Assembly (NCBI GenBank): GCA_017434555.1
Contig: JAFRFB010000144.1
Location: 1-58,133, forward strand
From: Methanobrevibacter sp.
GTDB taxonomy: Archaea; Methanobacteriota; Methanobacteria; Methanobacteriales; Methanobacteriaceae
Direction: 5' to 3'
Length of the DNA stretch: 58,133 nucleotides
In this document: one piece after another, positions 6,311 to 7,905 of the stretch
How positions within the stretch are numbered: position 1 is the stretch's first letter
Layout of the letters: each line of letters opens with the position of its first letter
Translations under genes and position numbers: made by a program
Notes under the pieces: generated by a model
Databases searched by the model: none
What the model was told of the DNA's origin: nothing
What the model saw: the letters and a program-made list of their open reading frames with translations, nothing else

Positions 6311-6355
6311 ATAACGGGAAGATTATTTCTATTAATCTTTCACTATTTTTTTACG

Positions 6356-6392
6356 AGTTGAAACAATTTTACTCTCTAAAAGCAATATTTAC
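6356..6392 (+). repeat. Upstream repeat, copy 1
   Basis: A 37-bp block starting AGTTGAAACAATTTTACTCT is repeated without mismatch at 7035-7071, and similarity continues with a few changes for about 15 more bases. Each copy lies about 70 bases upstream of a TATA-like run and 190-220 bases upstream of a tiny hydrophobic ORF, so it probably regulates or marks that unit. The core GAGT, GAAACAATTTT, ACTC contains a short inverted repeat. Confidence 0.75.
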
Positions 6393-6573
6393 TTAATAGG
6401 GTATTTTAAAGTCTTTATTTTACTAAAAACATTTATATATTTCTTATTTTAAAGTTTAACATGAAAATATTCCTCCGATATTGGATATGATGTTGTGTAT
6501 GATTATGTTAAAATTTAATGTAGGATATGATATCTCTGCTAATATTTATTACCATTGTTTGGGAGGTATTTTT

Positions 6574-6672
6574 ATGGATTTTAAGCTAAATGTAACGTTA
6601 GCAATTGAAGATCCTTTGTTTTTTAGGATTTTAATTATATTTGTCCTGGTAGCTATTAAGTTACTTGGATGA
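6574..6672 (+). CDS. 32-aa hydrophobic peptide, paralogue 1
   Basis: The ATG at 6574 is preceded by a strong GGGAGG ribosome-binding site (6561-6566). The product has a short charged N-terminus (MDFKLNVTLAIEDP) and a single membrane span (FFRILIIFVLVAIKLL). A paralogue of 31 residues lies at 7262 with the same layout (start MDFKLNV versus MDLKLNV), which supports real coding. The leader from the TATA run at about 6432 would be some 115 nt. Size and hydrophobicity resemble type I toxin peptides or small membrane regulators; no function is known to me. Confidence 0.6.
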   Translation: MDFKLNVTLAIEDPLFFRILIIFVLVAIKLLG

Positions 6673-6839
6673 GTATGTGATTCATATTATTATCTCCATG
6701 ATTGTGTGGTTATTGGATTTAGAAGTTAATGATGAAAGTTTCAGCATGATATTTCCAAGTATTGTGCTCTATTTTTAAGGAGGAGTATTTTTACTTTTTG
6801 AAATTAAAATTTCTAATTTTCCACACAATCAAAATAATG

Positions 6840-6847
6840 TTTAAATA
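6840..6847 (+). promoter_or_regulatory. TATA box of structured RNA copy 1
   Basis: TTTAAATA lies 31 bases upstream of the first hairpin of the RNA at 6871. The equivalent box of copy 2 lies at the same distance, and both are followed by TAGTAGT. Spacing fits an archaeal start site right at the first stem. Confidence 0.5.
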
Positions 6848-6870: not shown

Positions 6871-7008
6871 AAGAATTTTTTTAAATTCTTGTGAATTTTT
6901 TAATTCACTATCCTTTTAAACAATGGTAAAAAGTCAGTGCCTCTTGGGATTTTGTGGGGTTATTTTTTGTAATTCCACATTAGGGCATTGATTTTGGATG
7001 CTTTTTTT
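6871..7008 (+). ncRNA. Candidate structured small RNA, copy 1
   Basis: Four hairpins follow one another. H1 has arms AAGAATTT and AAATTCTT (6871-6890). H2 has arms GTGAATT and AATTCAC (6891-6908). After a 45-nt linker, H3 has arms GTGGGGTTA and TAATTCCAC (6954-6978, with two G-U pairs). H4 has arms GCATT and GATGC (6985-7001), followed by seven Ts (7002-7008) as in an intrinsic terminator. A second copy at 7547-7685 keeps all four stems, with compensating or G-U changes in H1 and H2, near-identical sequence from H3 to the end, and a divergent linker. A TATA box sits 31 nt upstream. No ORF of note lies inside. I do not recognise it as a known RNA family. Confidence 0.65.
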
Positions 7009-7034
7009 GTATCTTTTTTGTTGTAATTTTTCTA

Positions 7035-7071
7035 AGTTGAAACAATTTTACTCTCTAAAAGCAATATTTAC
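7035..7071 (+). repeat. Upstream repeat, copy 2
   Basis: Identical over 37 bp to 6356-6392. It begins 27 bases after the U-tract of RNA copy 1 and lies about 190 bases before the second hydrophobic-peptide ORF. It marks the start of the second tandem unit. Confidence 0.75.
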
Positions 7072-7261
7072 CTAATGGGGTAATTTAAACAGGTTAATTT
7101 ATTAAAAATGTTTAAATATTTTGATATTTAATATATTATTTAAAGACATGCCTTTAATTGGCTTTTAGAAAAATTAAAATGATAATCAATCATCTGATTT
7201 ATTGTGGTTGTTGTATTGATTTTGTTATTTCGGCCAATTTCATCATGGTGGAGGTGAAAAG

Positions 7262-7357
7262 TTGGATTTAAAGCTAAATGTAAATTTGGCAGTTAATGGT
7301 CCTTTTTTAAGGCTTTTAGTTATACTTGCCATTATCCTGATTAAAATAATGACATAG
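7262..7357 (+). CDS. 31-aa hydrophobic peptide, paralogue 2
   Basis: The start is a TTG at 7262 with a purine-rich GGTGGAGGTG ribosome-binding region at 7247-7256. The product, from MDLKLNVNLAVNGP, has one membrane span (FLRLLVILAIILIKIM) and aligns end to end with the peptide at 6574. Several differences are conservative (Ile/Val, Leu/Phe), as expected if the protein sequence is under selection. Weak TTG initiation may keep expression low. Function unknown. Confidence 0.55.
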   Translation: MDLKLNVNLAVNGPFLRLLVILAIILIKIMT

Positions 7358-7514
7358 TATTTTGATCATTTTTTCACTTTCTATGTGTGAATATTGTTGA
7401 TTATATGAAATTAATGATGAATGTGGCATAATATGTCCGTTATTATGTCTGTAATTAAATAGGCATGTCTTTCTTTCTGAAATTGATTATAATCGCTTTT
7501 TCACACTAATAAAA

Positions 7515-7523
7515 TTATATATA
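7515..7523 (+). promoter_or_regulatory. TATA box of structured RNA copy 2
   Basis: TTATATATA ends about 24 bases before the first stem of RNA copy 2 and is followed by GTAGTAAG. It is positioned like the box at 6840 for copy 1. Confidence 0.5.
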
Positions 7524-7546
7524 GTAGTAAGTAAATAATAATATCT

Positions 7547-7685
7547 AGAATTTTATATAATTCTTTTGTGGATTTTTTATTCACAATATTTTTCAAACCA
7601 TGATGAAAATAATCGATGTCAACGGGCTTTTGTGGGGTTATTTTTGTAATTCCACATTAGGGCATTGATTTTGGATGCTTTTTTT
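7547..7685 (+). ncRNA. Candidate structured small RNA, copy 2
   Basis: Homologue of the RNA at 6871. H1 has arms AGAATT and AATTCT (7547-7564). H2 has arms GTGGAT and ATTCAC with a G-U pair replacing A-U (7568-7584). H3 has arms GTGGGGTTA and TAATTCCAC (7632-7655). H4 has arms GCATT and GATGC (7662-7678), followed by seven Ts. From H3 to the T-run it differs from copy 1 by only one T in a loop, while the linker between H2 and H3 (7585-7631) is largely different in sequence but similar in length. Such a fixed 3' domain with a variable linker would suit an sRNA with exchangeable targets. Confidence 0.65.
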
Positions 7686-7905
7686 AATTTAGTTTTTTAA
7701 ATGGATTTTTTGTTTTCATGAATACTACATTTTAAAACAGCTTTTTTTAATAGAATTCATTTCAAACAATCAACTGACCAATATTTTCAATACCTATCAC
7801 AATTACATCAACTTTAATCACTCATTTTTTCATTAATTAACGATAATAAAAATTAATATAATGTTAAAAACAAATATATAAATAATTTCATATAGGAGAT
7901 TGAAA

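Follow-up and report, generated by a model that had tools for sequence, protein, structure and literature searches.

What purpose might be served by two similar RNAs of about 138 nt, each built of several hairpins and ending in a U-tract, that follow one another on the same strand in an archaeal genome? This question is raised by a 58,133-nt stretch of DNA from a rumen methanogen, Methanobrevibacter sp. (contig JAFRFB010000144.1 of assembly GCA_017434555.1; hereafter the window), in which a first-pass annotation had proposed the two RNAs as a selected structured RNA that would suit a family of antisense regulators. Absent from that annotation were a small open reading frame (ORF) upstream of each RNA, the complementarity between the linker of the RNA and the leader of this ORF, and the targets. 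In our reading, to which we assign a probability of roughly 0.8, the region comprises two tandem, mutually distinct archaeal type I toxin-antitoxin modules. Each unit consists of a peptide gene and an RNA gene on a single strand, with the RNA gene about 300 nt downstream of the peptide start codon, and the two units stand in tandem. Comparison of the sequences reveals two genes per unit, antisense pairing at the Shine-Dalgarno sequence (SD) that co-varies, an mRNA fold-back that co-varies as well, and separate promoter signals. Antisense control is strongly supported by these comparisons; the toxicity of the peptides we infer.

Both RNAs were found as described (Table 1), with a predicted fold of two 5' hairpins, a free linker, an outer stem around an inner hairpin, and the U-tract. 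They are 82% identical overall and belong to a wider family, so a recent exact duplication, which had been named as a way in which the proposal could fail, is not the case. A 3' block of 52 nt is 94% identical and the linkers differ, as the first-pass annotation had reported of a nearly identical 3' part and a diverging linker. We used covariance models (R1, then R2 built from 20 members, with a cut-off of E <= 0.01), which recovered the two copies in the window at E values of 8e-17 and 1e-13, well beyond chance, the rest of the window being at noise level. The Rfam covariance models gave no match to either RNA at the gathering score, in agreement with the earlier statement that no named family fits; weak Rfam matches resembling small nucleolar RNAs lay below noise and were rejected.

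The covariance-model search for homologues with covarying stems, which had been suggested as a check, showed that such homologues exist. Close relatives of the RNAs were retrieved by a DNA search of the genus, and 93 relatives were recognized by the covariance model in the fetched loci; they come from genomes of the Methanobrevibacter type and from one sister genus. RNA matches occurred in 38 of 139 family genomes, 36 of them in the genus of the window and 2 in a second genus; across 152 genomes of the phylum, the model gave no match outside these two genera. Those relatives that have names are Methanobrevibacter assemblies from the rumen and gut, M. millerae SIG13 among them, and the window's own genome holds six RNAs, five of them at E below 0.001 and the other weak. 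A scan of IMG/VR with one exact RNA pattern, which is a weak test, returned no match and no sign of viral carriage.

Across 21 distinct sequences, 92.8% of the alignment cells assigned to the fold were paired and 26 of the 38 pairs had changed on both sides, values that none of 500 shuffles reached. Sliding the partner strand destroyed this pairing, although the alignment was fitted to the structure and thus favours covariation somewhat. Compensatory changes were present in all four helices across homologues from other species, so that the changed bases with kept pairing noted earlier between the two copies extend to the family. The same is true of the TATA box noted at both RNAs: a TATA-like box, lying about 31 nt upstream, starts at positions -38 to -27 in 72 of 88 RNAs, compared with 8.8 in shuffled sequence. 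The covarying pairs and the RNA's own promoter signal bear out the proposal of a selected structured RNA.

The linker provides the connection to the peptide genes. In both units, the diverged linker between the second and third stems (H2 and H3), read as its reverse complement, has the sequence of the DNA directly ahead of the SD of the small ORF in the same unit, and an inverted-repeat analysis likewise joined 6546-6560 with 6918-6932 (repeat I7) and 7238-7249 with 7597-7608 (repeat I15). For the linker of RNA 1, no site on either strand within about 1.5 kb was better than target 1. In 12 hand-delimited units, predicted pairing was -18.4 kcal/mol with the unit's own leader and -9.6 kcal/mol with those of others, and the own leader was preferred in 11 of 12 (permutation p < 1e-5); a blind scan of every 60-nt window, over up to about 1.5 kb and both strands, placed the best site at the small-ORF SD in 10 of 12. 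In the R2 set, the alignment was used to delimit linkers automatically, and ORFs were picked by SD, length and hydropathy, blind to complementarity. The 58 distinct ORF/RNA units obtained in this way gave -13.1 kcal/mol for the own leader versus -6.6 kcal/mol for other leaders, with 33 ranking first (z = -20.5). Because relatives are not independent, we then kept a single unit per linker group, defining groups by a shared 9-mer since gapped identity chained all linkers together, owing to their AT richness; the own target ranked first in 23 of 32 groups (z = -17), and none of 50,000 permutations came near.

In the window's own genome, each of four linkers had its best predicted binding to its own leader. 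Furthermore, a protein profile alone turned up a divergent peptide (G022:C78, L058) that has, as we had predicted, an RNA downstream, and this RNA carries an 11-nt match to the SD region of the peptide. The linkers track their targets in ORF leaders, as would be expected of the antisense regulators proposed earlier, and the target prediction that had been suggested for them returned the cognate small-peptide genes next door. These results also bear on the idea of a transposable or repeat element in which the hairpins are incidental, for which several copies per genome and their tandem duplication could be cited. No transposase or terminal repeats were seen at the units, however, the linkers co-vary with local targets instead of being copied, and the stems show compensatory changes, leaving this explanation next to no probability. 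On the strength of co-variation, both of RNA pairs and of linker with target, we rejected a mobile element and chance repeats alike.

The peptide mRNA itself is predicted to fold back. In the founding family, the TATA box of the peptide gene lies about 30 nt before a 5' element whose pairing partner is the 3' end of the mRNA; such 5'-3' pairing was predicted in 10 of 11 cases, and minimum folding energies of the peptide mRNAs were 3.3 to 10.2 standard deviations below those of shuffles (z -3.3 to -10.2). Two-sided changes occurred at 6 of 13 fold-back positions, with 2 of 5000 permutations as good, for elements that were picked by eye. An anti-SD directly after the stop codon was present beyond chance in 28 of 37 units. 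In models of the nascent mRNA, most units show pairing between the 5' end and the SD (4.4 pairs on average, 10.1 at most), with little in unit G000b and none in G012a; in mRNA 1, it is the CCTCC of the 5' element that is predicted to pair with the SD in the nascent chain. Separately, we observed that a 127-nt stretch lying upstream of both peptide promoters and overlapping them (6348-6474 and 7027-7153) is 76% identical between its copies, and that a similar motif, CAATTTTACTCTCTAAAAGCAATATTTAC, precedes units in other genomes; this is possibly a regulatory site.

As RNA and ORF share a strand at a distance of about 300 nt, and pairing in cis is possible, the two could instead lie on one long transcript, with the linker as a long-range attenuator of the peptide gene. 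This arrangement is hard to reconcile with the strong, positioned TATA box before the RNA (the 72 of 88 above), with the U-rich stretch after the mRNA fold-back element, or with genomes G003 and G016, each of which has a second RNA copy with no ORF of its own following, and we regard it as very improbable.

Whether the peptides are toxins is a separate question. Both peptide ORFs are unannotated, hydrophobic and 31-32 codons long, and the short, hydrophobic peptides (31-32 amino acids in the window) are helical in AlphaFold2 predictions. They carry cationic residues near the C-terminus, like known membrane type I toxins (PMC8309996), and agree with the description of such a toxin as a small (<60 amino acids) hydrophobic peptide with a membrane helix (PMC8309996). 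An alternative is that the antisense RNA silences small membrane peptides that are not toxic, such as regulators of a stress response or a membrane complex; the RNA-level evidence is all neutral on toxicity, small proteins are common in methanogens, and some units keep their position next to the gene at 7900 across several species, as would a useful gene. We consider this unlikely, in that several sequence-unrelated peptides are combined with one RNA fold, a pattern that is easier to explain if any membrane-active helix will do than if the peptide has a specific partner. Likewise, layered translational locking suits a dangerous product, and addiction modules are commonly scattered in this way (38 of 139 family genomes), with orphan RNAs and decayed ORFs among them.

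Several observations weigh against the reading as type I modules. The peptides match no known toxin family, having no match in Pfam and no significant or meaningful match in NCBIfam, PHROGs or PADLOC. Substitution support for translation of the ORFs is thin because they are so short, and one pair had a nonsynonymous value (pN) equal to the synonymous one (pS). One unit (G005:C20, in genome G005) is an exception to the pairing rule, with a shortened ORF and a linker without a match, and 31 of 91 RNAs lack an automatically found SD and small ORF upstream; some of these are orphans, and others may reflect missed ORFs or false matches. Finally, in a thermodynamic model the SD was still paired with the anti-SD after 45 nt had been cut from the 3' end of the mRNA, so that the activation route of hok and AapA was not reproduced; going by this model, activation would need trimming past the anti-SD, or co-transcriptional opening.

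Several individual loci depart from the common layout. Locus L025 (G012:C89) has near-perfect linker/target pairing and ACG at the expected start codon, which could be a rare start or mark an inactivated peptide gene. RNA copies without an adjacent peptide gene are present at L005 (1499-1641, minus strand), L009 (1310-1433, minus strand), L033 and L035, and may be orphan antitoxins or act elsewhere. Together with the ORF-less RNAs generally, G005:C20 and G012:C89 look like decay or orphan antitoxins, and some weak matches are possibly false. A 41-nt remnant with 90% identity to the RNA 3' end (L004, G000:C135:10833-10873) occurs with no other part of a unit. In the second genus, L113 and L080 (G085 and G094) are divergent units, of which that in G085 encodes MSIQMKIWIGIVLYFIYLGCIYCLIIMALAKLL and has a matching linker.

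Table 1. Predicted features of the two units, with coordinates in the window.
Feature	Position	Strand	Remarks
TATA-like box, peptide gene 1	6432..6439	+	TTTATATA; some 30 nt ahead of the 5' pairing element
5' end element, mRNA 1	6463..6476	+	GAAAATATTCCTCC; pairs with 6779-6792
Antisense target 1	6549..6566	+	Abuts and includes SD GGGAGG (6561-6566); 18-nt pairing with RNA 1, -23.5 kcal/mol
Peptide gene 1, putative membrane toxin	6574..6672	+	MDFKLNVTLAIEDPLFFRILIIFVLVAIKLLG; predicted helix
Anti-SD 1	6688..6697	+	Just past stop codon; expected SD-downstream pairs 9.5 vs 1.5 shuffled
3' fold-back element, mRNA 1	6779..6792	+	GGAGGAGTATTTTT
TATA-like box, RNA 1	6840..6847	+	31 nt 5' of RNA 1 start
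RNA 1, candidate antitoxin RNA (138 nt)	6871..7008	+	Fold, covariance model; H1 6871-6890, H2 6891-6908, linker 6909-6929, outer stem with inner hairpin about 6930-6994, U-tract 7002-7008
Antisense core, RNA 1	6912..6929	+	CCTTTTAAACAATGGTAA; complementary to 6549-6566
TATA-like box, peptide gene 2	7111..7120	+	TTTAAATATT
5' end element, mRNA 2	7142..7153	+	AAAGACATGCCT; perfect complement of 7461-7472 (inverted repeat I14)
Antisense target 2	7238..7249	+	TTTCATCATGGT; adjoins SD GGAGG (7250-7254)
Peptide gene 2, putative membrane toxin	7262..7357	+	MDLKLNVNLAVNGPFLRLLVILAIILIKIMT; TTG start
Anti-SD 2	7369..7381	+	TTTTTTCACTTTC; past stop codon; 11.8 expected pairs vs 1.6 shuffled
3' fold-back element, mRNA 2	7461..7472	+	AGGCATGTCTTT
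TATA-like box, RNA 2	7515..7523	+	
RNA 2, candidate antitoxin RNA (139 nt)	7547..7685	+	Fold as RNA 1; fold, covariance model
Antisense core, RNA 2	7597..7608	+	ACCATGATGAAA; complementary to 7238-7249

How would such a toxin-antitoxin module work? We propose that in each module a TATA-driven mRNA of about 340 nt would encode the membrane peptide of 31-32 amino acids, and that the 138-nt RNA would be transcribed separately from the same strand, just downstream of the peptide mRNA. The unstructured linker of 12-18 nt between the hairpins would pair with the mRNA of its own peptide gene, at the SD or immediately 5' of it, which would block ribosome entry and probably expose the duplex to nucleases. 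The mRNA would also be self-locked, through pairing of its 5' end with its 3' end and of the SD with the anti-SD past the stop codon, and translation would occur only from a minor or processed form of the mRNA, policed by the RNA. If the module were lost, or if the short RNA decayed first, this control would be released, the peptide would be made and the membrane would be damaged.

Other RNAs of the family serve a different peptide type (MELIIF..TYxFNI..IIK). In 34 distinct units of this sister subfamily, the peptide ORF is preceded, and usually overlapped, by a leader ORF; pairing of the linker tends to extend to both start regions (z = -12.3 and -8.7), often by its 5' half at the peptide SD and its 3' half at the leader SD. 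In L070, L074, L076, L110, L118, L120 and L122, we observed what appears to be a bipartite antisense RNA, in which one linker is directed to the SDs of both leader ORF and peptide ORF. The overlapping leader ORF of the sister subfamily recalls mok in the mok/hok arrangement; no mok-like leader ORF led by an SD was identified in the units of the window. We think it quite probable that these modules constitute the first archaeal type I family, composed of fast-diversifying gut-methanogen modules with a conserved scaffold, an exchangeable linker and a hok-like mRNA lock, and that the linker of one subfamily pairs at the two start sites of an overlapping leader ORF and a toxin.

By mode of action the modules belong with type I systems, and by their parts they are new. 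As in hok/Sok of plasmid R1 and enterobacteria, there is a small membrane peptide and an antisense RNA at the translation start region, along with an mRNA 5'-3' fold-back and an SD occluded by a downstream anti-SD, which are predicted structures here. However, a Sok-type gene overlaps its toxin gene in antisense, whereas the RNA gene here lies downstream on the same strand; moreover, the system is archaeal, its multi-hairpin RNA bears a guide-like linker, and its peptides are unrelated to Hok. TisB/IstR-1, ShoB/OhsC, ZorO/OrzO and DinQ/AgrB are same-locus type I systems in which a separate antisense gene has short complementarity to the toxin leader. The modules share with them the separate antisense gene and the limited complementarity to the leader, but differ in RNA fold, domain of life and target position, and also in having dozens of paralogues in which one fold is kept and a short linker is changed. 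IsoA, the antitoxin of the AapA/IsoA system of Helicobacter pylori, is a cis antisense RNA. The aapA3 mRNA forms metastable hairpins, and hok and AapA mRNAs are activated by 3' processing (PMC6733600). The modules resemble AapA/IsoA in their long-distance 5'-3' interaction, anti-SD elements and several chromosomal paralogues (PMC6733600), and the metastable 5' hairpin on the SD may have a likeness in the nascent 5' end, which is predicted to cover the SD in most modelled units. They differ in that 3' trimming by 45 nt leaves the SD paired in the model, and in an unrelated peptide and RNA.

To our knowledge, the archaeal RNA-antitoxin modules so far described are CreTA modules, which work differently. 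In CreTA, which occurs in haloarchaea and bacteria, Cascade is guided by CreA and represses the transcription of an RNA toxin (PMC8501985, PMC9458426). An RNA antitoxin, which in CreTA is CRISPR-repeat-like and lies beside type I CRISPR-Cas, is common to both kinds of module, but from its description CreTA differs from the units studied here, where a peptide is the predicted toxin and the RNA would pair with the peptide mRNA. sRNA162 of Methanosarcina mazei (PMC3510493) is, similarly, a methanogen small RNA (sRNA) that pairs with mRNAs, but it does not constitute a cognate peptide module. According to a 2025 paper, known type I systems were confined to Proteobacteria, Firmicutes and Tenericutes, and that paper adds a cyanobacterial candidate (PMC12390103). 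Our search of the open literature turned up no archaeal case of a type I system, a search that left subscription papers largely outside its reach and priority unproven.

If our reading is correct, the type I principle would extend to another domain of life by way of methanogens of the animal gut, and an mRNA fold-back like that of hok would have arisen, or been kept, outside bacteria. The dozens of sRNA/mRNA pairs would show how antisense specificity evolves, and the modules would offer natural archaeal translational switches for genetic tools.
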